Origin: Amphibalanus amphitrite
Lineage: Eukaryota > Arthropoda > Thecostraca > Balanomorpha > Balanidae
Reading direction: 5' to 3'
Length of the DNA: 64,000 bases
Assembly (NCBI RefSeq): GCF_019059575.1
Contig: NW_024882029.1
Span: 124,001 to 188,000 of the forward strand
Under the pieces are notes generated by a model. The model did no database searches. It had not been told where the DNA came from and saw only the letters and a list, made by a program, of their open reading frames with translations. The translations under genes were made by a program, and so were the position numbers. Below, piece after piece: positions 18,739 through 63,902 of the stretch; within the stretch, counting starts at the first letter, position 1, and the number at the start of each line of letters is the position of its first letter.

Positions 18739-18750
18739 CCTGAAACAGGG
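18739..18750 (-). promoter_or_regulatory. Splice acceptor just before the start codon
   Basis: Read on the minus strand, CCCTGTTTCAG is followed by G and then ATG. This places an intron in the 5' UTR, with a first non-coding exon somewhere above 18.75 kb. Confidence 0.6.
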
Positions 18751-20690
18751 AGCGCCACCGAACGGTTAGTGGGGAGGCCAGAGTCCGACTGTGGTGCGGA
18801 GCCGTGGAGCGATACACTGCACTGGTAGACTGTGCCGCCGGGCGTCAGCGGGCATGGAGAAAATAGCGGAGCGGCGGTAGGTAAACACTGGATACTGTAA
18901 GCGAAATCGGGGTCTGGGAGTAAGCTCTAGCTTTCTAAAAACTGTAACACTGCTGATAATATTTATTTGGAAGCCCTGTTTCAAATGAGGCTAAAATTGT
19001 ATGGAAATGCGTGGACACTTCTGTGAACAAAATATTTTGGCAAGAATAACAGTCCACACTCCTGATCGGATTCTTCTGAAGCATTAATTTTTGCATGAGT
19101 ACAGCGTTCTCAATATTCCCGGTCCCTAACGCTGTAACATTGTATTGCAATTACTGACATTTTATTATAATGGAGTTCAGTTTAATTGCGTTAACAGTTT
19201 CTACAAAATGTGCATACAATCAGAAACCATCTGTTACCCTCAGTGCTCCATATCACTCGAACAATAGCCAATCTGTTACCAGTTCCATGTTCACTGTTCA
19301 CCAATACAGCTGAATAATGAATATTGTTAGCAACGGGCAAACACTGCATGCAAAGCCAAGGTCAGAGCTGAGTGTTGGCTGCTATGCTAAAAAAGGATTT
19401 GTCTATTTGTCCGACCCGGTAAACCCATCCCTGGACACTCTCTGCCCACTCCTCTGCCTGGAGTGCTGAGTGCTGAGTGCTGAGTGCTGAGTGCTGAGTG
19501 GAGCACGTCAGCGTCTGAGGAGGCCACCGCACGTTGCCCATCAGCGCCGAGGGTCGCGGTTTCCCGTCACGTTCAGAATCGCATCAGGCCGGCCACTCGG
19601 GCCCGCTCCAGAGTTCCACAGAACCTTGGGTCCATCACCACACCTCAGACGCGGCTGGGGTGACAGTGCGCCGCCTGGACCGTCCTCTATGCCATATTCA
19701 ACTGGGAATGTGCAGTGTCCTTTGTCCTGGAGGGCTGTGCCGGCTACTCAGAGAATACTAAAAGCACGGTTGCATCATTGTAATGGGGTGCAGTTTTCAG
19801 CTGATGCATGTAGTCAATACAGAAAACCAATTTGCTCAAGCCGTGCTGCATGTGGAATTTATGCGATGGCGATAAAATGGAACACGGTGTGATGGCATCG
19901 GGCCTGCAGTTGACCATGATACATGGCACAGGCATGCAGTTACTAGCCTGGCACATGGCGTGCAGATTAAACAAAATGAAGCTGTGCGACGTTCCGAAAG
20001 CGCCGGTGAGTAAATGTGAAACAAAAAATAAGCTGACAAAAAAAAAGCAGTATAGGCAAATGAACGGTAAATGGCCTCTTTATGAGCTTGGTACAAAAGA
20101 GGGATGGGTAAAAAGGCAAATCATGTTCTACAAAGTTAAAGATCACACCAACTGACCGATGTAGACCGTTTTTGGTTTCGTCCTTATTTTATGTGAAGCA
20201 ATTCACTTAATAAGTTTATGATAAGCATAAACAACTTATTACTCCCTGATTTTAATTGAAGTACCGAAATTGATACCGCCTGAGCTGACTTTTGAATAAG
20301 TCTTCTGCCTGTTTTTTTATATGGTTTAGCAATTCATTAGTATCTGCATGACCAAATTTCTCTGTCTTTGGTAATCTGTCTTTCTTCTTTGGTGATTGAT
20401 GGTCCCTGCAGATATGCTTCGGATCGAAAGATTCAGTGTGAAGAGAACAAATTTAATGAACATTCATCAACTAAAATAGACTTTTAAGCGTACGATTATA
20501 TTGTTAAATGCGATGGATCACTTGCTTTTAACTCATCTTTCTGCTACGCATATGTAAGGTAGCTGATGTATTACCGTATATTCACTCAAGCTCTCAGGAT
20601 CAGAGGTAGCTAATAGCTTCAAAGCCACTCGTTTATCTTCTGATTTATTCCCACGGCTGTAGCCAGATTTCAGATTGGCTCAGCTGATGT
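18751..20690. other. Unassigned; upstream of the clip-like gene
   Basis: Probably contains the 5' UTR exon and promoter of the clip-like gene on the minus strand. Open frames at 19491-20155 carry no known domain. Confidence 0.35.
19461..19499 (+). repeat. (TGAGTGC)n 7-bp tandem repeat
   Basis: About five perfect copies of GAGTGCT/TGAGTGC in a row. Confidence 0.92.
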
Positions 20691-36111: not shown

Positions 36112-37094
36112 TATTTTGCAATAAAAATTTGTAACTGCACTGCACAACAACTAGGCCTTGCGTTCTAGGTGACATGCAGTGACATTAAGTCATAGTATCG
36201 GTGCTTCTGCAATAGTGGCGACAGCAGCAAGACCCCTGAACACAATGAACACCCCTCCGTACCACCGTACCTTTAGCACCCTATCCGCACCTCCCCCTCG
36301 CCCCAGCTGTTGCCCTGATATCGTGACCGGGGCCCGTCTGACGCTGCCGGCAGCGGGTGTGGTCGGCCGCTCTGCAGTCTGCAGACTGCACACTGCACAG
36401 TCACCCGCCAGACAAACTGGAGCCCCGGCGGCCGGCGCTTCCAACGGCAGCGATCATGATTCCTGGCATCGGCTGGCGGCGGCGGGCTGGCCACCTGTGG
36501 GAGCGGCCGGCCGGAGGCAGCAGCAGCGGGCCGCACACCCGCCAGCGCCCGCTGACCCACACACAGACAGACTTTTACTTTCGGCACCTGCAGGCGGCAG
36601 ACCGAGTGGGGCTGGCCGCCCGGGACGGCCCCGTCCAAGGTCAGGAGCGAGCCGGGGCGGCGGCACCGGCCGGCGCCCGTAGGACACCGCCCCGGGGCAC
36701 GGCCGGCCGGCGCCGGATGGTACCGAGATGGTCAAGGTCAGCCACGTCCGCGGCCGGACGCACTGAGTGTGCGGGGAGTGGCGCAGGGGCATCTGCCTGG
36801 GTGACTGTCTGGTGTGTGTGTGGGGGGGGGAGGGGGAGTAACATGCCAGGGATTTCCCACGCATTAAGAGCATTGATCGTTAGCAATTTGCGCCAATTAT
36901 CACTTTATTTTATCAGCTTTTGGAGTAGTGTTGTCGACAGTCAACTTTATTCGATCGATCGCTTCCATGAGCTCGATTAGAAGTCTGTTATCTTTTGATA
37001 TGCATCATAAATGGTCGGAATAATCACCAGATGCGTTGCATCATCCAATGATTAATATATGTTTCGTATTCCCCGTCCACGAGCCAGTATTTGT
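36112..37094. other. Unassigned, GC-rich; contains 5' target repeat
   Basis: GC-rich at 36280-36830 with overlapping open frames on both strands, none with a domain. Positions 37082-37094 are the left copy of the 13-base target duplication of the retrotransposon that follows. Confidence 0.4.
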
Positions 37095-39351
37095 TCAGGT
37101 TGGCTTCAGAGAGAAGCGGGGTGTGGAGGATGCCATCGCTCGTCTAACCCAACAAGTTCAGGACGGATGGCAGCTGAAGCCGTGCCCCCCATCCCGGAGA
37201 CAGCTGCCGGACGGTGAGTCGGCGCAGAGATTCGTCCTCGTTGCGTACGACTTCGCACGAGCGTACGATAAGGTGGACCATCGCCTCCTGCGTGCCCGGC
37301 TCGCTGAGATGGGAGTACCGGCGTGCTTCAACTCCTGGGTGTGGAGCTTCCTCAGAGACCGGCGGGCTTGTGTCGAGCTCAACGGAGCAAGGAGCGGCGA
37401 GCGCGTCTACAGGGCAGGGCTGCCCCAGGGCAGTGTTCTGTCCCCGACCTTGTTTTTGTTGTGGTCGGCTCCACTAGCGTCAACCCTCCGAGCCCTGCCG
37501 GGCACTACTCCGTACATGTTTGCGGACGACACCTCCACACTGTGCTCGGGTAACACGATTGAAGTCGCGCGGGAGCGGGCACAACGAGCGGCCGATACCC
37601 TGGTCAAGTGGGCCCGGGAGAACAAGATGGAGGTGGCGGGCCAGAAAACCCAGCTTCTAGTTCTGTCTCAGAGCCACCGGGACGCCGTCGGTTGCCGCAT
37701 CCGTGTGGCGGGCCAGACGGTGGAAGGAGGCCCTGAACTGAAGTTACTCGGCGTAACGCTGGACAGGACTCTGGGGTTCGGCCCCCACTGCAGGAACCTC
37801 CGCCGCCGCGTCCGCCCTCGCATCTCTCAACTACGACGAATCACCGGTCGCAGCTGGGGCCTGGAGGAGAGACAACTCCGAGCCGTCGCCAACGGCTACG
37901 TTAGGGGAGCCATCGAACATGCGGCGGCCGCCTGGATGCCGGCGGCCGCCAGGACTAACATTGAAGTTCTGGAACGCGAGATGCGTGCCGCGGCCCGAGT
38001 CATAACGGGCTGCATCGGGTCGGCCCCCATCCACGGAGTAATGGCCGAAGCCGGCGTGGCCCCGGTCGCGGCGCGCCGCACAGCACTGGCGGCGAGGATG
38101 CTGGCGAAGGCCATGGCACTGCCCGAGGAGGACCCGCTACACCGACTGGCCGTGGCGGACCCACCGCGGCGCCTCAAGACCGTCTGCGGATGGCGCCAGT
38201 TGTGTCGGGAGGTGTGGCGGACCCTTGGAGTGGAGCCACCGGTGGAGCCGTTGCTCCCCGTGCGCCCCCCGCCCTGGCAACCGACCGGCACGATCAGCTT
38301 TAACCTGGACATCGGAGCGGGGCTCCCAGCCGGAGCTGCCGCCTCCACGAAGAAGGAAGCCGCCCTACACCACCTGGCGTCCCTGACCCAATGTGCGACC
38401 TGGGTGTGGACCGACGGGTCGGCGACTGGAGGCGTTCTCTGTGGAGGGGCCGGCGCGCTGGTCGTCCACGCCGATGATGACCGCACTGAGCTGAAGAGGC
38501 CCGCAGGAGCGCTCTGTTCCAGCTTCAGGGCGGAGATGCTGGCCATCGCAATGACCCTGGAACATCTGGCGACACACCCTCGTGACGACACATTGCCAAT
38601 AATAATCTGTACCGACTCACAGTCTGCCCTGGCTGCACTGAGAGAGGGGCCTTCGGCCCAGAGGACGGTCCAGGGGGCGGAGATATGGAGCCGCCTGCTG
38701 GAAATCGCCACACCGGACCGCCACGTGACGCTGCAGTGGGTCCCATCGCATTGTGGGATCCCAGGCAACGAGGCGGCGGACGTGCTGGCGGGGGAGGCGG
38801 CGGCGCTGGATCAAGAAATCGCCTCCATCGACGTCAACACCGTCTACAAGGCTGCGGCCCGTCTAGCCAGGGACCAGGCGGCCAGGGACAGACCGTCATA
38901 CCCAGACCCGACACGCAGAGCGGCGACCGGCTGGTACCGGGAGCTGATGGGTACGAGATACCCGCCCCCGGTCTCCGGCCTGGATCGGCGGACAGCCATC
39001 GATGTCCACCAGATCCGGACTGGCCACTGGAGTGGATCAACCCAGTTCCTGCACTCCATCGGCCGGAGCCCCTCAGCCGCCTGCGCCCAATGCCGGGACC
39101 TGCTATGCGAGGCCGCCCGGTGCCCGCTGTGCGGCGAAGAGGCGGACACCCCCCGGCACATCCTGCTCACGTGCCCGGGCCTGATGGGTGTTCGCCTCAA
39201 AATCCCGGCCGTAGGGAACATCCTACCAACACCCGACGAGGTCTGGCGCAGTGACGTGGTGGCGGCCCTGGTGGCCGCCTTCAGGGCCCTCCAGAGCCGA
39301 TGAGGCTACGCCGCGGGGCCACCCGCGGCCGGAGGGAAAATCAACAACAAC
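37095..39351 (+). mobile_element. 5'-truncated non-LTR retrotransposon with target duplication
   Basis: 2,257 bp, bounded by the perfect 13-base direct repeat AGCCAGTATTTGT (37082-37094 and 39352-39364). It carries the end of ORF2, a 3' UTR of about 48 bases and a tail of TCAACAACAAC. ORF1, the endonuclease and the start of the reverse transcriptase are missing, as expected when reverse transcription stops early. The uninterrupted frame and unmutated target repeat indicate a recent insertion. Its GC content is well above that of the flanks. Confidence 0.92.
37096..39303 (+). CDS. Truncated ORF2: reverse transcriptase, RNase H, zinc motif
   Basis: About 735 codons belong to the element; the frame is open further upstream only by chance. 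It starts at the conserved QxGFR region of the reverse transcriptase. It then has YDFARAYDKVDH with the first catalytic Asp, LPQGSVLSP, and FADD with the catalytic pair. A complete RNase H domain follows with its acidic residues: D in TDGS, E in FRAEM, D in TDSQSA, D in GNEAAD. The C-terminus has a zinc-type motif C-x2-C-x8-H-x4-C. RNase H plus a C-terminal CCHC points to the I-like group of non-LTR elements rather than Jockey; the clade is a guess. It cannot move by itself because the endonuclease and ORF1 are lost. There is no frameshift or internal stop. Confidence 0.93.
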   Translation, partial: QVGFREKRGVEDAIARLTQQVQDGWQLKPCPPSRRQLPDGESAQRFVLVAYDFARAYDKVDHRLLRARLAEMGVPACFNSWVWSFLRDRRACVELNGARSGERVYRAGLPQGSVLSPTLFLLWSAPLASTLRALPGTTPYMFADDTSTLCSGNTIEVARERAQRAADTLVKWARENKMEVAGQKTQLLVLSQSHRDAVGCRIRVAGQTVEGGPELKLLGVTLDRTLGFGPHCRNLRRRVRPRISQLRRITGRSWGLEERQLRAVANGYVRGAIEHAAAAWMPAAARTNIEVLEREMRAAARVITGCIGSAPIHGVMAEAGVAPVAARRTALAARMLAKAMALPEEDPLHRLAVADPPRRLKTVCGWRQLCREVWRTLGVEPPVEPLLPVRPPPWQPTGTISFNLDIGAGLPAGAAASTKKEAALHHLASLTQCATWVWTDGSATGGVLCGGAGALVVHADDDRTELKRPAGALCSSFRAEMLAIAMTLEHLATHPRDDTLPIIICTDSQSALAALREGPSAQRTVQGAEIWSRLLEIATPDRHVTLQWVPSHCGIPGNEAADVLAGEAAALDQEIASIDVNTVYKAAARLARDQAARDRPSYPDPTRRAATGWYRELMGTRYPPPVSGLDRRTAIDVHQIRTGHWSGSTQFLHSIGRSPSAACAQCRDLLCEAARCPLCGEEADTPRHILLTCPGLMGVRLKIPAVGNILPTPDEVWRSDVVAALVAAFRALQSR

Positions 39352-48500: not shown

Positions 48501-48808
48501 ATTGATAAAAAACAGCCATGAAAGATAGTGTGAAACGAATGTATAAGCCAAAAGGACGCCTTGAGTTGGCTAGAGTTTTTGACTTCTGACGTCACTGTGA
48601 CGTCATTTCAAATGGGATCGACACCAAATTTGGACACAATCTTGGCTAGGTGTTCAGAAAGATGTGTGCAAAGCTTCGCTTCTCTATCTCTTCGCGTTGC
48701 GACGATATCGTCGCAGAAGTAAAGAGGGGCAACTATATATATGCCCCCCCCCCCCCCTCCCAGCGGCCGGCGGGTTGCGCAGAGGCCCTGCAGCGGCCGC
48801 CGGGTTAA
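48500..48808. mobile_element. Right-end fragment of another GT-type element
   Basis: Paired GACGTCA sites at 48588-48606, a long C-run at 48744-48758, then GGCCGGCGGG, GCGGCCGCCGGG and TTAA at 48805-48808. The order matches the right ends of other GT elements. The TTAA is shared with the left end of GT-4. Confidence 0.55.
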
Positions 48809-50003
48809 CCCGCGCCCTGCTGGGGGGGGGGTGTTTGAACACCCCCCCCTTGTGGTTTTTCGCGAATATCTCAAAAAAGGCGGCGCGGAGCGCCGCCGTT
48901 TTTGGTACACCTTATCATACATCAATTCTACACATGTTGTTAAAATTTCAGACCAAGGTCAATCAAGGTCAGGTCACCAGGTCACTTGAAGTGACCTCAC
49001 CTCATAAAAAGTTTCAATGTCTGTCATAGCTACACCGAGTGACCGATCGCTTTGAAACTTTCAGCGATTGCTAAGAGCAATAGCATGTACAAAATGTATA
49101 TCTCAGAATTTCGATATCGATGACCTAAGGTCAGGTCAATTTTGCGACCTCCCCATTATAAGTCAATGGGAGAAAATTGAAATGCGCCTCTTTTGGACGA
49201 AAGACATTATAAACACTCCCAAACACCGAATTACAAGTGGTTTAGACACACAGAACATGAAAATGGTGTCCGTGACCCTTGTTTATGCCCTGAGGTCATC
49301 TTAGGTCACGAATGGTATCTAACAGTTTTTCGCAAATAACTTTTGATAGAGGCATGCTAGAGCGATGAAAACGCCTTAGATGTGTTCAGCTCGACGATAC
49401 GGATCGACTGATATGCAACATGACCCTTTCCGGTCAGGTCATGACCTTGACCTGAGGTCAAATTTTCAAGTTGACCTTTCAAGGTCAACTTATAGTTCAT
49501 TCGATGCGTCTTGACGAGAGGAACACGATGCCGGTAAAAGTAAGCTCGTACAAGGCTTGGGTCAAAAGTTATTGCAGAAAAACTATTGCCGAAAAAATCG
49601 GCTATTTTTGCAGTTTTTGCCCCCTGCAGGCAAAACCGTTGACGTTAGGTCAAATCTGAGAGAATTACTCAGAAAGGGCGTTAATAGGGCTATCGAATGC
49701 GCTTTTCCGCGGCGCTGTAGCTCTATTGGTTCCCGAGTTATGCGTTAGCTTCTTAGAAATTTTCGACATTCGACCTGGAAATCGGCGAAATTTTGCCTTC
49801 TATGACCTCTGGTGACCTGACCTTTGACCTGACCAAAAAATTGACTGAAGTGATTTCCTCATTATTTTTGACGCTCTTTCGAACGCCGCCTTCCGCGTAT
49901 CGCTACGTGGTCCAGGAGCCGAGTTACAAGGGGGGGGGTGTTCAAACACCCCCCCCCCCAGCAGGGCGTGGAAATCCAGGACCCCCAGCCGGGCGCGGGT
50001 TAA
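48805..50003. mobile_element. GT-4: TTAA-flanked element with G-run palindromes
   Basis: 1,199 bp. It starts TTAACCCGCGCCCTGCTGG plus a G-run, with core TGTTTGAACA and a C-run. It ends with a G-run, TGTTCAAACA, a C-run, CAGCAGGGCG, then a second copy of the end (CAGCCGGGCGCGGGTTAA). The interior is rich in AGGTCA (48956-48990, 49120-49140, 49430-49500) and has a GCCGCGCC inverted patch at 48884-48898. GT-6 is a diverged relative. No transposase. Confidence 0.87.
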
Positions 50004-50589
50004 AGGGATATGTTCATGTCTAACATGGGGAATGGAGTTGAGATAGCAGTTTTGCTCGTTATACGCTAAAACCACATAATCCGGAGCCATTCGACTCGAA
50101 AATATAAATTGACAGCGCTAGAGAGCAATTTCGACATGGTCTTTACCAGATCGCCAAGGTCTTTACCAGACATGACCAGAGGTGTATGACGTCAGCAAAA
50201 AAAACTAGATTTCAAGCTAACGGGGACAGATTCGCCTAATGGATTGGCGTTTTTTAAAATTGTGTTCAAAATTGTCCGCAAGCAGGATGTTGAGACGACA
50301 CGCGGGCAGATGCATGGCGTGAATCGTCGTAAAGCTCTTCAGAATGCTTGCTTCTGATTGGGTAATCTTCTTTGACATTTCAAGCTGAGAACTCAACAAC
50401 GCTTTCCTCATACATTTTGCGCGTTTTTTTTTTTTTTTTGCTGGTTGTCAAGGCAAATAAACAAAAAACCAAGATACCAATAAGAAACCGAAAAATCATT
50501 TACGTGGTTACGGAAACAGTCCAGTTGTTATCTTTAAAAAAAAAGTTCCTGATGAGCTCGCGTGCAGTGTGATATTTGTAATCATATCC
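50004..50589. other. Upstream region of the ten-cysteine-module gene
   Basis: AT-rich with a T-run at 50427-50440. It should contain proximal promoter elements, but none is recognised besides the TATA box. Confidence 0.35.
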
Positions 50590-50597
50590 TATAAAAG
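50590..50597 (+). promoter_or_regulatory. TATA box TATAAAAG
   Basis: Perfect consensus TATAAAAG, followed about 30 bases later by the likely start of transcription near 50620. The first in-frame signal-peptide ATG is at 50849, giving a 5' UTR of about 230 bases if unspliced. An upstream ATG at 50626 opens a frame that overlaps the main start. Confidence 0.55.
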
Positions 50598-50848
50598 GTG
50601 AAAGTTGAGCACTGCGGAATGCAGCATGCCACAGTTGCAGAATGCCTACATATGTCAGTGGAGACTAAGCAGACCGCCGCGGCATACCCAACACGAGCCC
50701 CCCTCAGCAGGCGCGTGTTTTGTAAGGGGAGCAGCGGCAGCTGGTTCGCTGCAGTGTGGGTCCCGGCCCAGCCTCAGCAGCAGCTCTGCTCAGCACCTCA
50801 GCTCCGACCCCAGCCTCGGCACCAGCTCAGCCCGACCTCACGGCTCCG

Positions 50849-50891
50849 ATGGCCCTATCGGCGCTGATCCTTTGTTGCGCCTGCCTGGCTG
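50849..50891 (+). CDS. Exon 1 (signal peptide) of ten-cysteine-module protein
   Basis: Encodes MALSALILCCACLA plus the first base of a Gly codon, then a strong donor G|GTGAGT at 50891/50892. The hydrophobic peptide is a typical signal sequence. The phase (one base carried over) and the residues around the junction (LA-G-ASVPP) fit the acceptor at 61575 exactly. The frame otherwise has no plausible continuation. It belongs with 61576-63902. Confidence 0.72.
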
Positions 50892-50938
50892 GTGAGTGAC
50901 TTATATAGTTTGCTGCCAATGCGGAGCAATGCCGAACG

Positions 50939-51888
50939 TTAACCCTCGCACGACCAGGCCATTTCTCATAACACGAACGACCAGGGGGGGGGGGTTGTTA
51001 CGACCCCCCCTGGCGTTTCGAAACGGAAGGTCGTAGAGCTTAGCGGAAAAAACCAACGGATTGCTCTCAACGAGATCTCGCGATTGGTGGTATATTTTTT
51101 GGTCCTAGGTCAACATTTGACCTACTTATGACCGGTCAAAGGTCAAATTTTCCGAAAAAATCAAACTTTTTCAACTTTCCGCGGCGATTGCGGCAAAACG
51201 GTGGGAGATATCGACTTGAAACCTTCACTATCGTGTTCCTTGATCAATTCTCTATCGTTTGGTATGTATTTCGTTTCCCTAGCTCTAAAAATGGCGCGTT
51301 GGGAGCGCCGGAAGTCGGCAAGGTCACAGTCGGCGGCAGAAATTCGAAAAATCAAAATTTAAATTTTTGAAATCTGATTGTATTTTTGGATTTGGGAGGT
51401 CCATTTGCTCCCTATAGAAGCTAATATTGCTGCATATTCCCATTGAGGTGACAAGAATTAGCAAAATAGTGGTTCGGGCGCTTTTCAAAAATAGTACCGG
51501 ACGCTGTTCCTCTTGTGACGTCATAGCTCCGTGACCTGACCTGACCCGGTCAATTTTCTTGCACCACACGATAGCCAATGCTTGCCCCAACATGCATGGG
51601 AAGTTTCATCATGATCCATCAAACAATGTGGGTATCACCGGCAGAAAACCTAGGGATTCGGCGCACACGTTTGGTAACTGTCGGCCGGAGGCTGTACCTC
51701 TTATGACGTCATAACTCCGTGACCTGACATGACCCGATCAATTTTTTTTCGGCAAAAGATGCGCAAAGGTTGCCCCAGAGGGTATTGAAAATTTCAGCCC
51801 GCTACGACAAGCCGTTTAGCGTGCACTTCGAAAAAACCTCAGGGGGGGTTGATACAACCCCCCCCCCCCCTAGGCGTTCTAGGGTTAA
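50939..51888. mobile_element. GT-5: TTAA-flanked element, 47 bp inside the intron
   Basis: 950 bp. The left end is TTAACCCTCGCACGACCAGG and the right end is TAGGCGTTCTAGGGTTAA. G-run/core/C-run units have cores TTGTTACGA and TTGATACAA. The interior has TGACCTGACC words at 51533-51547 and 51720-51735 and duplicated wording around them: each copy has a CTCTTGTGACGTCATAGCTCCG or CTTATGACGTCATAACTCCG type stretch. Ends are less similar than in other members, suggesting age. Confidence 0.78.
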
Positions 51889-52154
51889 AGGGACCTTCCC
51901 ACCTTCAAAAAAGTTAATGGGAATAGCTCACTTTCCTGAAATTCTTTTTTTTACAATGGATTTATGATTTTTTCTGCTAAAATTATCGGAAAATAAAACA
52001 AAACTTTTTATTAGACGGATTATTTTCTATATTCTAATATAGGAAGAACTATATTCTTGTCTGAATTGCTGTTAGCACTGTTTTGAGAGACATGCTTAAA
52101 CATATATCAAGTAAAGTAACCGTACTCTTATAGTTTATATCGAAAATCGTAAGA
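51885..52154. mobile_element. AG-4: left end only of an AG element
   Basis: It starts TTAAAGGGACCTTCCCACCT and uses the same TTAA that ends GT-5. The complementary right end is not found within 2 kb, so it is truncated or interrupted. The right border given is approximate. Confidence 0.5.
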
Positions 52155-52316
52155 AAAAGGCCTGATAATTCCGAGGAGCTTTCGGCTTACGCCTTCTTCA
52201 ACTCGCTCTACTTTATTTTCCTTTTTAAATGTGTTTGCGCCAAAAAGGAAAATAAAGTAGAGCGAGTTGAAGAAGGTGTAATCCGAAAGCTCCTCGGAAT
52301 TATAAGACTTTTTATC
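52155..52316. repeat. Near-perfect hairpin (fold-back)
   Basis: Arms of about 60-70 bases. The left arm includes AATTCCGAGGAGCTTTCGG and CTCGCTCTACTTTATTTTCC, and the right arm is their complement with only a few mismatches. The loop is about 15 bases (AATGTGTTTGCGCC region). It would form a long, stable RNA hairpin if transcribed within the intron. Confidence 0.93.
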
Positions 52317-53385
52317 AGATCATTATCTAAGAACTATATTCCATATAAAATAACGTTTGACGCGGAAGCTTATTAGGAGTGTTGGCCAATGATATTACGT
52401 ATTTCAAACATACGCATGCTGTAAGTACCTATTGGCTGTGAGCAGCATGATGATTGCCAATTGGCTGACAATGACGTGGCTGCATTCCTCAGCAAGGCAC
52501 TCTTTACGGAACGAAAAAATTAATATCTTCGTCTACGGTGATCGTTGGGCCGTAAAAGCTTCTGATTTGTGCTAGTTTCAGCTCTACATCTTTTCACTCT
52601 CTATTTAAAAAAGCTGAAGTTCGAATTAAAAAGCTGTATTGCAAATTAAAAAGCTGTGATGCAAATTAAAAAGCTGTGATATAATTTAAAAATGATGCGA
52701 TGCAATTGAAAAAAGATGAAATTCGAATTTAAAAAAAGCCGAAGATCGTATAAAAAAACCAAGTAAAAATACGGATTCGGGTTGCGAATAAGGCTGTATT
52801 GTGTGAATGTAGGTACCTAATTCACGTAGTTATGTACCTATACTTTCGTTTTGTGCCCCCTTCACAAAAATGTCGTTCACGTCTCAAAATCTGTATTCAA
52901 TACATACAAGTATGCCTATGTATGAAGGTAAACAAAACACGAAATGGTGCAGCAGACCTGCAACATTGAAAACCTGCGGAACCTGATAACGCAATATTGC
53001 CATCATGCACACGCACGGCCAAGAACTTCTGCACTCAGTCTCAGTCACGCATGTGTTATGTCATGCATCATGCATGTGCTACTACGTATGTTGAGTTCCA
53101 CACTTCATCCCCGTAGCAAGATCTTCCAGGGCCATGCATCGCGGGAAGTGCCGCTGCACACGGTTGCAGCACCCGCATGTTCTATGGGTTCCGTATCAGT
53201 ATCGGCAAAATCAGACATGTTATCTCGTAGGTATATCTACGAAATAATACATGACAGCAGGCGTTGAAACTTTTTGTTCTTACTCCAATACCAGCTTCAG
53301 TGAAACTGCTCCAAATTGCTCGGGTGATTATCTTCCTCAATTGCGTAGGTATTGTTGATTACATATGTTACGGGTCATATGCTAA

Positions 53386-53533
53386 CTTGGGCAGTATGCA
53401 AACTGCCCGGGCAGTATGCAAACTACCCAACAACCCGGGCAGTATGCATACCGCCCGGGTAGTATGCATACTACCCGACCCCTTGGGCAGTATGCATACC
53501 GCCCAAAAGCTTGGGCAGTTTGCATACTGCCCG
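53386..53533 (+). repeat. Array of GGGCAGTATGCATACTGCCC palindromes, left
   Basis: Seven to eight half or full units of GGGCAGTATGCA and TGCATACTGCCC with variants (GTAGTATGC, CAGTTTGC). They are separated by CCCGGG, ACAACCCG and CTTGGG. Confidence 0.9.
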
Positions 53534-53867
53534 CCTCTCGTCTTGAAGTTGTGTATTCCATGTCCATTTTAAAAATAAAAATGGATCTCTAAGGAAAATA
53601 GCTTAACTACGAAGTCTGTTTTGCCGTCAAGTGCGTTTTATCGATTGAAGGATGGAATAAGAATTAGAATATACAGACTTAAATTTTTCACCCGAATTTC
53701 ATTGTTTATTAGCCAGCGGCCAACAAGTCATTTTCATCTGAAATGACGACAGATCTATAGCATCATCACTCGATGGCTTTGGTTTGGCATCTGGACCTGT
53801 AGAGGGCGTAAGTACAGTTTCAATAGCTAATGCTGCATGAAACCATTTGCATGTAAGGCGTAACAAC

Positions 53868-54927
53868 TAACAAGTTATGGTCAGGTAACTGCAGGGCAGA
53901 TCAAGTGAGTTGACCTTACCTCAGAAAAGGTTTGAACTTGTTCGCCATAGTTACCCCGACTGAACGATCGCTTTGAAACTTTCAGCGATCAAAAGCAGTA
54001 AAAGCATGTATAAAATACATGCATTGGAACTTTGATGTCGCAACCGATGACCTAAGGTCAGGCCAATTTTGCAGTCTCTTAGAAGTTGACAGGAGAAAGT
54101 TGAAAGACGCCTTTTTGGATAAACGCCCTTCTAAACGGTCTCAAATATCGGGTTCCATGTGAACACAACACACTGAATCGGCAAATTGCACTTGCGGTGA
54201 CCCCTCTTTATGACCATGAGGTCATGTCAGGTCATAACAGATCTGCAGTAGTTTTTCTACGATTACCTACTTTTTATGGAGACGTATTCGAGCAATGGAA
54301 ATAACCTTAGATGTCTTTAAGTCGACGATAAGGATCGTCTGATAACCAACATGACCTTTTCATGTCAGGCCATGACCTTGACCTTAGGTCAAATTTCAAA
54401 GTGGTCTTAAAAACCAAATTATAGTTAACTCGACGCGTCTCGACGAGAGGAATATGATGTCGGCAAACGCAATGTCGTGCCTATCTAAGGTAAACTAATT
54501 TTGCCGTAAAATATATAAATCGTCAAAACAGCTATTTTAGGCGTTGTTGCCCTCTGGACGCTACACCGTTGAGCTTAGGTCAACTTTGAGGGCTTATTCC
54601 AGAAAGCGTTAGAAGAGCTACTGAATGCGTATCTCTGCGGTGCTTTAGCTCTATTAGTTTCCGAGCTTGTGGGCCGATTTGTAAAAAAGTTAAAAAGGTG
54701 AAAATTGACCTTTGATGACCTCTGGTGACCTGATCTTTGGTGTGACCTAAAACATAACTGGAGTTTTTTTCCATGATTTGTTATGTTATTTAGAATGCCG
54801 CTTACCGCATCTTACATGCAGCTTACTCCTGTGCCGCTAAGTGACACAGGAGTCGAGTTAGGGTGTTCAATCCCCCTCCTAAAAAAACCGGCACGGCTGG
54901 TGCCGAGCGCGGCCCCGCGCGGGTTAA
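53868..54927. mobile_element. GT-6: truncated, diverged relative of GT-4
   Basis: Similar to GT-4 from about 48960 onward, for example both contain CGATCGCTTTGAAACTTTCA. It ends CCCCGCGCGGGTTAA with TTAA at 54924-54927. The left end is missing. The G-run palindrome on the right is eroded (GTTCAATCCCCCTCC). Confidence 0.7.
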
Positions 54928-55221
54928 AAAGTCTGCCATTGACATAGTATGCAAGCTATTGCATTAAAGGGAGATAATGACCTTTTTCCACAAAATCTGA
55001 GTTAGGACCATTTTCTGACAAAACACAACAAGTTATAATGTAAATTAAAACCATTTTGCTCAATTCGGTACCTTGCCGCAAATATCTCAACTTGAAGTCA
55101 CGTTAGCGGGGAGCGCTGAAAATGACCGTTGAATAAGTACTTACATCACTTTTTGGTACTTGCATGTAATTTTGTAAAATGAGCGTATTCCTTACATTTG
55201 ATCTTCATCACATCTAGTTAG
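54928..55221. other. Unassigned
   Basis: AT-rich filler between GT-6 and AG-3. Confidence 0.3.
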
Positions 55222-56000
55222 TTAAAGGAAGGGTGCCACCTTTTGGACACAACGCAGTTTTTACAAGATTAGCCTCACATGAACCTAAAAACCGGCTTCA
55301 CTTACCTATGCTCGAGACGGTCAGCATTGAATCCGCACGTGAAGTTATCATTTGCGAGTTTTGCTGCCAGCATTCGGGCAGGCAAAAATCTTCAGCACTA
55401 TTTCCTCGTCGTGTTAAGGGTATTTTATAAAACATGAAATCAGCAAAGGTATGTATAAAAGTTATACTTTTGAAGCATGTTTTATCATTTTGAAAGGGTA
55501 TATTTTTTCTTTATGGTATACACTTAAGTTTTAAAATTTTAATTGGGAAGTTTTTCTAGTAAGTTGCATGCGGGTGAAGGGTTCCATAGATCTCTTAAGC
55601 ATTGTAAAGGAAAAACCTTTACTCGACTTATTTGATGTTCTTTAACTGTTGGCAAATATGGCCAACAGTTACCTACTTGGTTACCTACAACTTAGTTCAA
55701 ATCATGTTATCTTCTTCCTTTTTATTTGTTCATCTTTTTGTCTCAGTTGCGCCATCAATGCAAATGGCAGAATGATATGTTGCCATGACAACAGGATATG
55801 CCAGCCGTCCTAGCTGCCACATCAAACGACCTTGAGTTGTAGTGGTGATATAAACAACGATCTTTTTTTTTTGGCCAATGTATTAAATGCAATGTTTCGG
55901 TTTTTTGTATATTGTGGACGCGCTAACCACGTCTAAAAATTCAAATAAGTAAAATAGATTCATAAAACAAAAATTTCGGAAGGTGGCACCCTTCCTTTAA
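55222..56000. mobile_element. AG-3: TTAA-flanked MITE
   Basis: 779 bp. The left end is TTAAAGGAAGGGTGCCACCT and the right end is its complement. Flanked by TTAA. A TGTTGGC...GCCAACA hairpin lies at 55638-55669. A 65-codon open frame near the left end has no domain. Confidence 0.85.
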
Positions 56001-56776
56001 TGGTCGTCTATAGTGCCTTCAAAAGATATTCATGGTTTGGGGGTGGTTTATGTCTAAATTTACGCAACTATTTTTTCCTGTTCATCATCTGACGCCATAT
56101 GCTGCTATTTTAGTAGCAACGACTCAATTTTGAATCGGTCCCGCCGACTGCACAATAAAAGAAGATAGATACAACACTTTTGCGGCATCACTGAAAAACT
56201 TATGCAGTACTGTTATCAAAATTCTCATAACACCGTTCGACAAACCTGAAGTCTTTTTGAAATAAATATGCTTGTATTTTTCGCTTCAGGCTCTGACGCC
56301 AAAATAATGAATTTCGTAGTCGCAATCGCAAGATTTGGCTGCGTTTCTGGCGCATGCCGTTCATTTGTGGCGCAAAATAATACTTGGAAACAAAGAAGAG
56401 TAGGTACTATGTACCCCCGAATTAGAATCTAATTAATTCTAAACCGAATTAACTCTTATTCAAATTAGAATCCTTACAACCAAGCAACGACAAGGCGATA
56501 ACATAAACAAAAACCCAAGCGTCGCTGTTTGAAACAAAAGCGCCATATACTGCGACTTTTTTATAGAGAAGGACAACGCATTTCGGTGGGTGTTACAAGT
56601 ACTGCAAGTACTGCTTCTTTTTTGCAAAAATAAAAACCTTTTTTCACATACGAAAATGTGCTGGGAAATTTTCATATTTTATAGAAACTACAGTAGAAAT
56701 AGTATAGATGTCGAGTATTTTTTATTTAAGAAAAAAGAAAGCTCATTATCTCCCTTTAACTAGCCTCACGAGCCAC
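56001..56776. other. Unassigned, AT-rich
   Basis: Several AATTAGAATC-type inverted words at 56420-56470. No gene. Confidence 0.3.
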
Positions 56777-57005
56777 GGTCAGCATACTGCCCGAGTAAAC
56801 ATCCTGCCCGTGAGATGAAAGGTGGGTAGTATGCATACTACCCGGGCAGTATGCAAACTACCCGGGCGGTATGCATACTGCCCAAGCGGTCGGGTGTATG
56901 CATACTACCCGGGCGGTATGCATACTGCCCGGGCTGTTGGGTAGTTTGCATACTGCCCGGGTAGTTTGCATACTACCCGAGTTAGCATATGGCCCGTAAC
57001 ACATA
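56777..57005 (-). repeat. Array of GGGCAGTATGCATACTGCCC palindromes, right
   Basis: Inverted copy of the array at 53386-53533, with two or three additional units and the same flank GGTCATATGCTAAC / GTTAGCATATGGCC. Confidence 0.9.
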
Positions 57006-57398
57006 CATTTTGTATTTTCCACGTTAACGCCATACGCTCTACATTTCGAGGGGTCCTACAATTTTGCCATGGAAAGGAGGGGCTAAACTTTGGGCGCAAA
57101 TTGATCTTTTACGTTGGCGCGCTCTAAAACCCCAATAAACAAACAAAGAGGGGTTCAAAATAAACTTTTTTAGACTGAACTTCAACTTCTTTAATTCGAA
57201 CTTCATGGTTTTTTTTAAACTGTATCGCAGCTTTTTAAAATTGTTTCACAGCTTTTTTAAATTGCATCACATCTTTTTTAATTTGCATTACAGCTTTTTA
57301 TATTTAAACTTCAGCTTTTTTAGATTGAGGTTGAAAAGGTGTAGTTACTAAACTGCTATTCCAGTTAAAAAGCCCGTGTTAAAAGTGAACCATTTCCT

Positions 57399-58583
57399 TT
57401 AAACCGCGCGGGGCTGGGGGGGTAAATTTTACCCCCCTCGCGAATTTTTGCAATATCTCAAAAACGGCGGCGCGCAGCGCCGCCAAATTTTCAGTACCTT
57501 TTCTTACATCAATTTGACACGTTCCCTGAAAATTTGAGCGAAATCTGTCAGAAAATTTTGGAGAAATTGACGTTTTAGTGACGTCATGTTCGCCATTTTC
57601 GCCTCAAAAACGGCAAAATTTCAAACGCCACTAACATCTTCATTTTTAAAGGAATCAAGACGTAACAAAAAAGGTTATACGTAATTTTACTTTGTCTATC
57701 AAATGGCTATCTCGGTTTTTTGAAATTTTTGGATTTTGGCCCAAATTTTTCCAAAAAACTGACTTTTGGGGGATAATAATTATAAAATCAAAAATTTTGA
57801 GTTTATCGAAAAACCGGAATACATGTCAGAGAGGTGGTCTATGTGCACCTACATATCAATTTTTAGATGAATCGGTTCAAAAATGTGGGGTTATTAAACA
57901 TTTTATGACGTCACGACACACAAAAAAATTGAAAAATGATTTTTTTGGAAGTTTTAGACCTTGTACGGAAACAAAATTAGCACCATTCGATTCGCCGTGA
58001 AAAACTTCATCAGATAGCCACCTTTTTAGGCCTTAACAACCAATTTCAAAATTTGACCTCACTTGACCTGGCCTTGACCTGACCTCGACCTGAAATTCAT
58101 CCAGAGGTGGTCCATATCACTTATTGAGTGTGCCTATTGAATTCTATGAGTGAAATGACCCATAAAACATGTGTCGCGCATGATGCCCTTTTCTATATTT
58201 TGTTTTTGGTGACCTGACCTGACCTGACCTGACCTTGACCTTGACCTCTGAATGATATTGTATGCAACGAATATTGTCTTGGTAGCCTAAGAACACGTTT
58301 TGGGCAATCAGTCTCAGTTCATGACTCCATTCATCGGCAACTACGGTGCAAGGCCGATACTGTAGGAACTTGCAATTTGTACCCTTGACCTGACCTTGAC
58401 CTTGACCTCAAACTTTAAATAAAGTACATGTTTTTAGTTGTTCGTGATGAGATCTTTGATTGGCGTTTGAATTTTCCAAATCGGACCATTAGTTCGGGAG
58501 ATAACAGGGGTGGGGGGGTAAAATTTACCCCCCCCCCCCAGCCCCGCGCGTTCGGCTGGAGACCCCAGCCCCGCGCGGGTTAA
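57399..58583. mobile_element. GT-7: TTAA-flanked element with G-run palindromes
   Basis: 1,185 bp. The left end is TTAAACCGCGCGGGGCTGGG and the right end is the complement of TTAACCCGCGCGGGGCTGGG. The G-run/C-run core is TAAATTTTA on the left and TAAAATTTA on the right. The right end carries a second partial copy of the terminus (CAGCCCCGCGCGTTCGGCTGG), as in GT-3 and GT-4. Interior TGACCTGACC arrays lie at 58060-58090, 58210-58245 and 58385-58410. Confidence 0.88.
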
Positions 58584-58850
58584 TGAATTGGCATACAAGT
58601 GGTGTCGCATGGTCCACTCCACAGTGAGCAAAAATAAATATCTACCAAATTTCACTCAAAAATATTAACCGTTTTTCAGACATTAGACAATTACTTTGGT
58701 GTATTTTTCGGAGCCTTCGCTGTTCCTACGAAGCCATTTGTAAGCAATAATTTGGTATCTTAAAAGTGCGGCAGATGTTGCGCGCAAACAGCATATACCA
58801 CCACTGCTTCAAAAGATGTTAGTACCTATAACATTGTATAATCGATAGAT
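58584..58850 (-). mobile_element. AG-5: fragment of an AG-2-like element
   Basis: From TTAATGAATTGGCAT to the GCGCGCAAACAGCATATACC region it matches the right half of AG-2 in reverse orientation. The terminal inverted repeat that should precede it is missing where GT-7 abuts. Confidence 0.6.
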
Positions 58851-59480
58851 CTGCGCTGACGTCACGATTTCAGATGGGCATTTAAATGCATTAGCCCCTC
58901 TGAATAAAAAAAAAAAAATGACCAACACAAAAAAGGCGCGGTGTCTGTGTGCGTCTCAGTTACTTTGCACATTTGAAACTGCGACATAATAGTGGCAAAT
59001 ATGAAAGCGTCACGCCAGCAGGCACATTGACACCCCTCACTTTGTCCTTCGCACCCCATAGCAGGGGATCTTATTTCTGTGGCGAAACTCGCAGAGTTAC
59101 AGCCACTTCAGACCTTTGTCTAGCATGCTGAACGTTTCCTCTTGTCCGAAATATCATAAATATGCGATTGTCACTGAGCTAAAAACCTTTAATTTGTACT
59201 TAGAGAGCCATAAGTGTCTTCTCCGGTATATATCAGTAATTGTCCTTCAGATTGGCGAAGATTACTCGGAACCGTTGCATGCTTAACGTCCTCCTGGCGA
59301 CTGACCGTGGGATGCGGTGGGATGTCATGTTTTCATTTTGTGTGTTTAACATTCGCAAAAGATTAGTCTTTTATCATGTGAATTATGCATATCATGTGTT
59401 ACCATTAAAGGTGCGTATCAACTCCTTAGAAATTGTTCTCATTATTTAGTAGACACTCGTTATTTTGCTATTTGATGTCA
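58851..59480. other. Unassigned
   Basis: Includes an A-run at 58909-58918. No gene or element end. Confidence 0.3.
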
Positions 59481-61404
59481 CTGATAGCAGGCTAGGTCAC
59501 AGAGGCCGGATCACTGAGGGTCACAATATGAAAGTGTCGTGAGATACATGTTGTGTGGTCCATTTTCAACGTCAAATGCGATTAGGTGAGTCAGGCAACC
59601 TTTGGGGCCAGTTTAGATGATGTTCTGGTGAAGGTCAGGTCAAGGTCAGGTCAAATTTGGTCAAAGTTCGAAGTTTATATTTTTGCATAAAACGGAAATT
59701 GAATCGATGCAGCTCGTCACCGGGAGACTAGTGGTGGTATTTGTTTTGCGCTACGTGGTCTAGAACTGCTAAAAATTGAGTTCGAAAATTTGACTTCATC
59801 AATTTTGAACAATTTTTCCCAATAACACGGCCAAAAAAGAGTTAACGATCTCAAAGTTGGATGTGGATAAAAGACGCTGGGGACTATCATATATGTTCCA
59901 GCTTTTCGAAATTCGATAAACCTTTGGGATTTTTTGGCTATTAAATATACAAAAAACTACGTTTTTGATTTTTAAGGCTCAAAAACCGAAATATCAAAAC
60001 TCCAAGATATCAGTATTACAGCCCTGTTAATTACGGAGCGAGCGAAGCGAGCGGAGTCTTACGTAGAATAGCGGAAATTTCTCAGTATGAGCGGCCGGCC
60101 GGCCGTGGTCACGCTTTTGCGACGCTTTTATCTCAGCAACCATGCTTGACCGATTTACATGCGGTAATTTTTGTAGGGTAGCTTCATTCCTTCTACCAAG
60201 TATTGGACTATTCCCGATGCATGTGGGTGACCCTCTTATGCACGTGCCACTTGCAAAACGAAGAGGTGTCAGTTTTGTGACAATTGCAATATCTCGGTAA
60301 CTACTGGGCCGATTGCGCTGAAACTTGGCATGTAGGGCACCCACTATAGGCAATGCATTTGCATGTGCCACAGTTGGGGTGCTGCTGCACGTGCGTACAT
60401 GCAGGGGTCGATTCCAATCTCGAGAACGGCTGGACCGATTGCGCTCAAATTTGGTACGCGGTTAGGGACCGGTTGGTAGGGTGCAGTGCAAAAGTCAGTT
60501 GGGGCCCATTTTGCACGTGCGCACGTGCAGGGTACCGCTTCCAGATCTTGAGAACGGCCAGGCCGATTGTGCTGAAATTTGGCACATCGCTAGAGACCAA
60601 TCAGTAGGGTGCCGTGCACAAGTCAGTGGGAGGTACCACCTCGCAATTTCGCACGTGCAAGGCCCACCCTCTCGCTCGCTCCGTTGGTCGCCCCAAAAGG
60701 CGTTTTACTGGTTTTACCTACATCTTTTATGTCCACAATATTTTTATATATCTTCAAAACTGTAGGCCTGACAGCTCTTTCCGCGAAACCTTTTTTGGGT
60801 CGAAAATGGCAGAACATGATATCATTCTGACGTCATCTGTGGCCAACCTATCATAGCCTCTGGAATTTTTATCACAATGTGTAAAATTGATGTCCAAAAC
60901 TGCAGGGCTGTCCTGAGATTTACTGAGCTCACAGATCTACATATCACTGTGATTTGGTAACGTTTACACTGAATGCTATCACAAGTTATCACTGACCTTT
61001 AATACAACCAAAAAGCAGAGTTGAACAGTCTGGCTTTACGTAAAAGTCAAACAAAATGTCAGCATACCTCTGTATCGAATTCAATAATCACAACAGCTCG
61101 TAGAGTGGAACCACACCACTCAGTTCGTCTGGAATGTCTGGACGGTGGCGATACTGCATGTGATTCAAGTGTAACTGAAAGAGCTCGCCAACCAAACACC
61201 GCGGTATGTTTAGACCGCTTGTCGCTCGGTGAAAATGTTTACAACGGCGAGCCTTACAGCAGCGCAGTCCAGGCTAAGATCAGTGTTTGGGCCTCGCCAG
61301 AGCCCACTTGCGGATTAATTGATTATTTAATCAGGAAATATTACAGAAAAATGGGAGGGGCTCTGTAGAGCCCCTTTCCCACACCCCAGTCACGCACGGG
61401 TTAA
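59480..61404. mobile_element. Composite GT / CACGTG-box region (GT-8)
   Basis: It begins with GT-type interior (AGGTCA cluster at 59634-59680 and text similar to GT-1 at 59860-59990). From about 60020 to 60810 it is the inverted copy of the element at 13.25-14.86 kb, including TTGCACGTGCGCACGTGCAG at 60511-60530. About 60815-60915 matches 9212-9310. It ends with the hairpin GGGGCTCTGTAGAGCCCC and CACGCACGGGTTAA (TTAA 61401-61404), a GT-style right end. The left end is not found. Confidence 0.6.
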
Positions 61405-61575
61405 AATATAGTACCTATGTGTATGAAAATGCCAAGATATCTTACAATTAGTGTGCTAAAAGAAATCACTGACATCCCTATTCGTCAATCAATTCTTATA
61501 AGTTATAGGAAGCAACTGACAAATTCATTATGCTGCATCACTCAGTATAGTTGTTATTGTTTCCTCTGTTGACAG

Positions 61576-63902
61576 GCGCCTCCGTCCCTCCGGCCATTGA
61601 GGACGTGACACCGCCCTCTACTGAAGCAGAGGGGGATACTTTCTCAGCCAATCAAACAGAATCTCAGCTCAAATCGCTCACGCCGAGGACGCCGGAAGCC
61701 TGTGTGGTACTGTACACAGAGACAGGGGACTTGATAGAAGAAGGCTGCGTCGATATCTCGGAACAATGCAACGAGACCAGCTGTGCTCCTGGAACCGTCT
61801 GTGGACTGAATCTAGACCAAGAAGTCGAGTGTTTCGACGAATCTGCCATTGATATACAGAATTGTGAATCAGCAGAGAGCAGACTCGCTCGGCCATGCCC
61901 TGAGCACACTGAAATATTGGGCTTCGGGATGGGATGCACATTTTGTGTTGAAGATGCCCTGCTCGATCATGGGGATCGTGCATGCATCGTCATTCCGATG
62001 GACATTGGAGAGGAAAAACAAGAATGCGTCGATATTTCAGAACGATGCGCCGAGCTTAGTTGCGAAAATGAAACAGTATGTGGCTTGAATTTGAATGAAA
62101 TCCCACAATGTTTTCCCAGTAATGTCACAGAGCTTCAGACTTGCGAATCAGAACAGGACAGACTGAATGAGCCCTGCCCTTACGGCACCAGTGTCCAAGG
62201 CTTTGGACAAGGATGCACCTTCTGCAAAGTCGATGAGCCAGATGAGATGAGAGTCTGTTTTTTGGACCCCAGTGAGCTCATGATCGAGTGTGTAGACATA
62301 TCTAAGGAATGTGAGCTTCTGGATTGCGAATTGCCAGGTATGTGCGTGTTAAACTTAAACAAAACACCAGAATGTCTGCGGAACTCTTCCGATTTGTACG
62401 AGAACTGCGATACGGAAGAATTCAGACTTGCCCAGCCGTGTCCAATTGACTTCTCAATTGTGGGATTCGGGGAGATATGCACATACTGCAGTAGTAGCTC
62501 AGATGGTCCCGAACCGACTGCCCCCACTAGTGTCAGCCCGTCAGTCATAATCCCAACAACGATGGCGCCCTTATCGGCACGCAGCTCCCCTTCTTTCACC
62601 TGTTATATCGGGGTGTACCAAGGCAAGCTCACTTTTCCATGCAAGGACTTCAGCGCAACGTGCCGAAGGTGCTCGAGGAGGGGCAAGATCTGTGTTCGGA
62701 ACATGTATCAAGAGATGAAATGTGTGACCAAGCAGGACCTGGAGCAGTATCATGCCGTGTGTGGTTCCCGGCGGAAGCGCGAGTTCCGCAGATGTCCCGA
62801 CGATTTTGAGCCAGCGGGCTACAGTGCCGGCTGCACATATTGCTGGCAGCTCTCGCCGAAACGCGTTTGTCGAGTCACGGACGGTCAGGCCAGGTGTTCT
62901 CCTCTGCCGCGGTGGTGTCAGAACTGTCCCGACAGCACCACCTGCGTCCTGGACACTGATGGCAGGGCGTGGTGCGCCACCTTCCAGATTCTATCTCACT
63001 ACAGCAGCAGCCCCAAAACGGAGCAGGTGCGGCTACTGGTACCCTGCCCGCCGGGCCAGGTGGCAGAGGCGTTCGGAGCCGGTCGCAACTACTGCCGACC
63101 GCGGGTTGGACCACGCGCCTGCCTGGTCTCACGCCACGGCGGCCGCTGCCAAGACATTGGACGCCTGTGTCAACGGCAGGGATGTGGCCGCACACAGACC
63201 TGCGTGGTTGGTACTGACGAGAAGGTGCGCTGTGTGGACCCGAATGTCCTGCAGATGCTGTACAGGAAGAACTGTGGCTCGGAGTTGCAGGGCCTCCTGC
63301 GGCCGTGCGCCGATGGCGGCGCTGTCGAGGCTTTCGGTCAGCGATGCACCTATTGTCGGCCTCGCCCCACTCGTCCAGCGGTAGCGAAAAAACGAGCATG
63401 TTTTCCAAACCGGGCAGGACCAATGTGTGTCGATATTTCAGTAGCATGCATGCGAATGGGCTGCAGTGCGATATCCAAAGGCACCTCGAAACTGTGTGTA
63501 CGGGATAGCAATACAGCCAACGTCAAGTGTGTGGACCCTCGGGTGCTGCGGCAGCACAAGAAACACTGCGGCAGCGAGCTGGAGCGGCTGACATCACCGT
63601 GTCCCAGGGGCAGCGTACCGGCCCTCTTCGGAGCCGGCTGCAACTACTGCAGCGTCTGTATCGCCATCATCAACGGCCAGTGTGTGACTGTTGACATGAT
63701 AGAGAAGGGCTGCGGGCGAATTCATTGTCGCAGAGGAACCCAGTGCGTCCTGCAGCGCTTCAGCGGCACATTCTCGTGCAAGTCGATGGCGCGGCGGATC
63801 CCCGCTTGTGGCACGCCGAGCGAGAGAAAGGACAAGCCCTGCACCCGGAGATTCTCCTTCAAAGCACCACTGGCGTTCGGTGTGAACTGCAACTACTGCT
63901 GA
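61576..63902 (+). CDS. Exon 2: secreted protein of eight ten-cysteine modules
   Basis: With exon 1 it gives about 789 residues. Upstream the frame closes at a TAG (61548), and a TTTCCTCTGTTGACAG acceptor ends at 61575, so the frame is entered by splicing. Eight modules start near residues 57, 151, 242, 357, 446, 530, 623 and 709. Each has ten Cys, except module 5 with eight. Cys 7-8 spacing is always 10, Cys 9-10 always 2, and Cys 8-9 is 12 (15 in module 8). Most modules have DI after Cys 2, PC at Cys 8, and GxGCxYC or GxGCTFC at the end. The middle (C-x4-C-x4/5-C-x8-C) resembles the follistatin N-terminal EGF-like fold; this is only a resemblance. A Ser/Thr/Pro linker follows module 3. Modules 1-3 are acidic and 4-8 basic. 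The protein stops right after the last Cys. No known family name is assigned; it is extracellular by signal peptide. Confidence 0.85.

Follow-up and report, generated by a model that had tools for sequence, protein, structure and literature searches.

The window, that is, the whole stretch of Amphibalanus amphitrite DNA analyzed here (64,000 nucleotides), contains on its forward strand a two-exon gene for which the coding join of positions 50849-50891 and 61576-63902 yields, upon translation of the spliced frame, an uninterrupted protein of 789 amino acids. This result agrees with the original prediction of a 43-nt signal-peptide exon and a 2.3-kb terminal exon with matching phases and splice signals. 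The coding part of exon 1 (50849..50891, 43 nt, + strand) encodes the signal peptide MALSALILCCACLA, assigned by hydrophobicity alone; the exon closes in phase 1 with a strong donor site (G/GTGAGT). It is followed by a putative 10.7-kb phase-1 intron with GT...AG boundaries (50892..61575, + strand), which is recognized by its splice signals and has a counterpart of similar layout (about 12 kb) in a paralogous 6-module gene. The terminal exon 2 (61576..63902, + strand), assigned from its frame and acceptor, begins after a pyrimidine-rich acceptor (TTTCCTCTGTTGACAG, with G as the first exonic base) and encompasses modules 1 to 8 and the stop codon; the stop-to-stop frame that contains it extends over 783 codons. 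The 50891/61576 junction is predicted from the sequence and from the paralogous layout. A TATA-box-like element, TATAAAAGG (50590..50598, + strand), with TATAAA at 50590, lies about 250 nt 5' of the ATG and might serve as the promoter, and an AATAAA signal is located about 121 nt 3' of the stop codon, just past the end of the window. No second allele of this gene was found in the assembly.

The predicted protein contains eight consecutive cysteine-rich modules, each delimited here from its first to its last cysteine and all encoded on the + strand. The three acidic modules with 10 cysteines each, namely module 1 (61701..61946), module 2 (61983..62225) and module 3 (62256..62489), are separated by a Ser/Thr/Pro-rich linker of 35 residues (62490..62594) from the basic half, which includes module 4 (62601..62843), module 5 (62868..63095), module 6 (63120..63356), module 7 (63399..63650) and module 8 (63657..63899), the most diverged of the eight. 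Of the 81 cysteines in the protein, 3 belong to the signal peptide, and the other 78, which follow it, all fall within the modules, with an even count in each (10, 10, 10, 10, 8, 10, 10 and 10 for modules 1 to 8). Accordingly, the eight predicted modules were recovered, with ten cysteines in seven of them and eight in module 5; the prediction that the protein ends on the last cysteine of module 8 is correct, Cys789 being the C-terminus. The spacing of Cys7 to Cys10, described as near-invariant, is exactly 11/13/3 in 6 of the 8 modules, so that this description is fair, the exceptions being module 8 (11/16/3) and module 5, in which Cys7 and Cys9 are both replaced. Because module 5 is missing exactly these two residues, we suggest that Cys7 pairs with Cys9 in the other modules. 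The predicted GxGCxYC ending mostly takes the form G-x-G-C-[TN]-[FY]-C, with phenylalanine as well as tyrosine in the penultimate position. Pairwise identity between the modules ranges from 23 to 50%, and the loop between Cys1 and Cys2 is the most variable stretch, in both sequence and length. The simultaneous absence of Cys7 and Cys9 from module 5 had no place in the original prediction, and neither did the paralogues, the charge split and the single-module member with a GPI-like tail described below.

The genome assembly agrees with A. amphitrite or a very close relative as the source: the gene-specific 20 nt of a published forward primer for the A. amphitrite cement gene Aacp114k (PMC4619306) have a single exact match in it, at the ATG of a frame that bears a signal peptide, plus one site with one mismatch, and the reversed control has none; the reverse primer is absent from the 3,020 bases around the forward site. 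A six-frame search of this 807.55-Mb assembly (2,644 contigs, with the window on contig C532), for which the queries were one paralogous module and the complete exon-2 protein, and which provides lower bounds on counts, located three loci. The single-module query produced at least 42 matches at E <= 10, of which 40 belong to these loci (the two remaining matches, with E-values of 2.06 and 5.86, were taken as noise), and the whole exon-2 protein located the same three. Besides the window gene, these are locus A, which consists of contig C94 and its near-copy C130, and locus B, consisting of C15 and its near-copy C478. Since the near-copies are approximately 83-98% identical among the listed stretches of more than 300 bases outside internal repeats, in an incomplete alignment, each pair looks like two alleles of a heterozygous animal. 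Among the window modules, the single paralogous module missed modules 4 and 8 and matched the other six, in one case at no better than E = 0.079; a profile built from 30 paralogous module rows, with both alleles included, recovered all eight, with E-values from 6e-29 to 0.003. Locus A encompasses a 904-residue frame with nine modules and a separate one-module exon, and locus B a six-module frame of 731 or 732 residues and a separate one-module gene, which brings the count to 8 + 10 + 7 = 25 modules per haploid set. The exon starts that could be placed (the array and the one-module exon of locus A and the one-module exon of locus B) follow an AG and are entered in phase 1. In the tree of the modules, only 3 of the 22 inner branches are well supported, and we therefore draw no branching order beyond one near-identical pair.

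Across the 25 modules, seven of the cysteine columns are occupied in 25/25 and three in 24/25, and the most frequent pattern is C-x(7-14)-C-x6-C-x4-C-x5-C-x9-C-x(9-13)-C-x10-C-x12-C-x2-C, accompanied by the motifs PCP and FG.GC[TN][FY]C. The window modules fit this definition of the ten-cysteine module family, which was drawn from the same rows, with deviating spacings in modules 4, 5, 7 and 8. In a leave-one-out analysis, in which each window module was scored against a profile of the other seven, the real modules obtained 28.7-79.6 bits, and the best of 500 shuffles per module with the cysteines held in place obtained 14.0-30.8 bits; in all eight tests, 0 of 500 shuffles reached the score of the real module, a comparison that slightly favors the left-out module because a single alignment of all eight had supplied the rows.

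The assignment of exon 1 draws on a paralogous locus as well as on the window. A strict scan of the + strand (positions 1-61575) for phase-1 signal-peptide exons returned the exon at 50849-50891 as its sole match, and the same scan over an equal length of the minus strand returned no candidates. Given that 40 Markov controls average 0.43 matches, the strict scan is not significant by itself; a looser scan gave 12 candidates vs 5.9 in the controls. The assignment is supported, however, by the same layout in paralogous locus B, together with the TATAAA at 50590 and the AATAAA on the 3' side. In 26 kb of C15, a fairly loose scan detected two candidate phase-1 signal-peptide exons, both with scores that pass the strict threshold, approximately 1 kb and 12 kb upstream of the first module of their respective genes, one per gene; in the allelic contig C478, a 28-kb stretch contained this pair of candidates again and nothing further, and because the two contigs are near-copies these are not two independent observations. 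Locus B thus copies the arrangement of the window gene, with a phase-1 signal-peptide exon, a long intron and a single array exon. For locus A, no signal exon common to C94 and C130 was found within 40 kb of each, and loose settings yielded two candidates in C94 and none in C130.

In the four pairs of window modules that were compared, out of 28 possible, pS (0.75-0.98, near saturation) far exceeds pN (0.33-0.41), as would be expected of a protein maintained by selection. Comparison of alleles shows purifying selection on both paralogous arrays, with dN/dS of 0.154 for array A and 0.177 for array B, calculated on frames trimmed at the start, the exact start of the array B exon not having been pinned down; for the single-module exon, the allelic dN/dS is 0.63, a value derived from only about 12 changes. 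It could still be the case that exon 2 is spliced to a different first exon or that the array is a pseudogene, given that the signal-exon scan alone is not significant and that the junction is a prediction. Such an error in the gene model is, in our estimate, very unlikely in view of the 783-codon open frame, the excess of pS over pN, the constraint on the paralogous arrays, the repetition of the layout in locus B and the presence of both TATA and poly(A) signals. Most likely, the gene is real and complete, and encodes a secreted protein of the beads-on-a-string type.

No Pfam family matched the complete window protein even at E <= 10. We additionally scanned 18 single modules, 8 from the window and 10 paralogous ones, and none of the models seen for the window protein or for these modules reached its Pfam cut-off. 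The best single-module match was to TILa (PF12714; E = 0.0015, 19.1 bits vs a cut-off of 27), a domain that matched 3 of the 18 modules, one of them from the window, and at best covered 29 of 83 residues; there was accordingly no strong match of a single module to a named domain. The spacing from Cys2 to Cys6 resembles the C-terminal half of TILa, but the remaining cysteines of the module are not covered and there is no TIL domain among the matches. The original prediction had also pointed to spacing shared with follistatin-type N-terminal segments, and the middle of the module, C-x4-C-x5-C-x9-C, is presumably comparable to the N-terminal EGF-like segment of follistatin, FOLN (PF09289). This link did not hold up: FOLN was matched by one paralogue only, over 12 residues (E = 0.29, 11.8 vs 21.1 bits), there was no Kazal match for the modules, and the fold comparison was insignificant. 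A search of PDB sequences produced no convincing match. In the PDB profile search, COX assembly factor 6 came up at E = 0.041 at best; this match and a ketosynthase with E = 0.52 were dismissed as cysteine-pattern or chance matches, and the follistatin/FOLN, TILa, EGF-like and colipase-like leads all stayed under the cut-off. Scans restricted by pattern returned 29 stretches from a viral and 314 from a prokaryotic collection, with no confirmed relatives in either; the one eukaryotic genome searched was the window's own, and the predicted arthropod-specific range is therefore conjectural.

The structure of a single module, the prediction of which had been proposed as a check, was modeled with confidence by AlphaFold for module 2 (pLDDT 88.3, pTM 0.77), and the two-module model was weak (pLDDT 70.6, pTM 0.44). 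A Foldseek search with the single-module model returned no match at E <= 0.001 and did not recover a follistatin-type fold over the whole module, follistatin appearing at rank 4 (E = 2.4, TM 0.24) and Fstl1 at rank 35 (E = 7.4, TM 0.30). These insignificant rows, along with the weak matches to TILa and FOLN in the Cys2-Cys6 region, are what could be expected if the module were a diverged version of a known cysteine-rich fold (follistatin/FOLN, TILa/VWC-like or EGF-like) that is missed by current profiles. We consider this explanation quite unlikely, and the partial TILa match would allow for a distant relationship to one of the known cysteine-rich modules. As far as Pfam, the PDB and the fold libraries reach, the ten-cysteine module is undescribed, and the characterization of the protein as an extracellular repeat protein with an unrecognized domain is upheld. 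In those parts of the literature on barnacle adhesives and cysteine-rich modules that were consulted we found no account of the module, which does not imply its absence from print, and it may well be present in UniProt, InterPro, AlphaFold DB or other crustacean genomes under the label 'uncharacterized protein'. We hold it to be highly probable that the module is a unit of roughly 82 residues with ten cysteines that belongs to a family undescribed in the libraries searched. The secreted, tandem cysteine-rich architecture is of an already known kind.

Among named systems, the Ly6/uPAR (LU) domains, which are about 80 residues long, contain ten cysteines and in some members are GPI-anchored, invite comparison. 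The module is similar in size, likewise has ten cysteines, and has one member with a GPI-like tail; however, its ending, C-x12-C-x2-C, differs from the usual LU ending. There is no LU family among the Pfam matches at E <= 10 and no LU chain among the best 50 Foldseek rows. The member in question is the product of the one-module gene of locus B, which ends in a short hydrophobic tail preceded by small residues, kept in both alleles, that we judge by eye to be a putative GPI-type anchor. The module of this gene and module 4 of the adjoining 6-module gene are almost identical. A GPI-anchored single-module receptor accompanied by secreted multi-module forms would be compatible with a recognition or ligand-binding family (immune, pheromone or growth-factor), an interpretation that these two features favor but that depends on an anchor signal identified by eye; we regard it as unlikely, if well short of far-fetched.

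The window protein itself is sharply divided by charge, with a net charge of -50 over residues 18-355 and +41 over residues 356-789. None of 100,000 permutations was as extreme, in a test for which the cut was picked post hoc and the residues were treated as independent. The computed pI is 4.05 for each of modules 1-3, the equal values probably representing the minimum of the program, and ranges from 8.2 to 9.5 for modules 4-8. All six N-glycosylation sequons are located within the acidic half, in modules 1-3, and this half probably carries N-glycans.

Based on these features, we propose that the protein is a secreted chain of undescribed modules and most likely a structural part of an extracellular matrix or secretion rather than an enzyme, with a probability of about 0.5. 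Each module would fold rigidly, held by as many as five disulfides and containing several strand pairs, and the protein would be secreted as a chain of disulfide-held beads in which the acidic, probably glycosylated modules 1-3 and the basic modules 4-8 are joined by the Ser/Thr/Pro linker. The opposite charges could cause molecules to pair head to tail or to bridge charged surfaces, the likely setting being the cuticle, mantle, shell matrix or adhesive. Secretion is suggested by the signal peptide, rigidity by the cysteine pattern together with the model, and association by charge alone; the matrix or adhesive mechanism, which is derived from the architecture alone, is one that we put at somewhat below even odds. 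Tandem cysteine-rich modules of this size are frequently inhibitors, and the window protein might accordingly be a multi-headed protease inhibitor with one reactive loop per ten-cysteine module, as in Kazal, WAP or pacifastin arrays. The strong variability of the Cys1-Cys2 loop in sequence and length would be in line with this possibility, as would the protease inhibitors that two papers report from the adhesive of barnacles and the matrix of their base plate (PMC5099703, PMC11293433). However, the peak of variability falls on a hairpin turn of the model, where variation is to be expected in any case, the modules of array A have stayed similar instead of diversifying, and no Pfam inhibitor family, Kazal, WAP and pacifastin included, is among the matches, so that an inhibitor appears rather improbable.

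Returning to the structural reading, if the findings are confirmed, the module would define a candidate domain family whose fold, predicted with confidence, is unmatched by the PDB entries compared here, and the three loci would represent a barnacle gene family that extends from a lone module bearing a GPI-like tail to single-exon arrays of six to nine modules. The charge-split eight-module protein would then stand as a specific candidate component of an underwater matrix. A far more specific scenario, which we consider doubtful as a whole, would have the module adopt a new fold absent from the PDB, the family arise or expand in barnacles or a wider crustacean group, the anchored module and the secreted arrays share a common ancestry, and the window protein assemble electrostatically in sea water, through its acidic glycosylated head and basic tail, at an adhesive or shell/cuticle interface. 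In one study, only one of the cyprid cement-gland proteins showed database homology (PMC8639568); with so few homologies on record there, structure and binding become open to direct testing once a module of 82 residues has been defined. The A. amphitrite adhesive proteome is reported to contain a cysteine-rich cluster, CrCP, which is a composition cluster that groups cysteine and lysine together (PMC8371367). Like the barnacle cement proteins and CrCP, some of which are cysteine-rich (PMC8371367), the window protein is a predicted barnacle secreted protein, but, compared with CrCP by description only, it is rich in cysteine (10.1% of the mature protein) and poor in lysine (27 of 772 residues).

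The single-module paralogue found on two contigs of the same assembly that are near-copies of each other (C15:1751865-1752359, positions 1866-2360 of the extracted piece L031; C478, L036:1203-1706) ends, as read from its sequence, in a GPI-like tail at the C-terminus. The module it carries and module 4 of the six-module gene, located about 15 kb away, are nearly identical, which suggests a recent duplication or gene conversion. At the other paralogous locus, the nine-module frame (C94:630234-632945, L027:6235-8946; C130, L029:4332-7043) looks like a three-module higher-order repeat with a unit of about 300 residues.

Within the window, a single open frame on the plus strand (37024-39300) encodes both reverse transcriptase and RNase H domains: it is a retrotransposon. 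Two further frames, at 48601-49029 (plus strand) and 49800-50117 (minus strand), have in common the peptide stretch TRA..LLGGG and are probably copies of a single dispersed repeat. An open frame of 427 codons on the minus strand (17485-18765) has a cysteine-rich start that resembles a signal peptide; a Pfam search at E <= 0.01 assigned it to no family.

The mitochondrial contig (C2644, 15,683 bases; pieces L041 and L042) contains a repeated stretch inside the ND4 frame that may be an assembly error.
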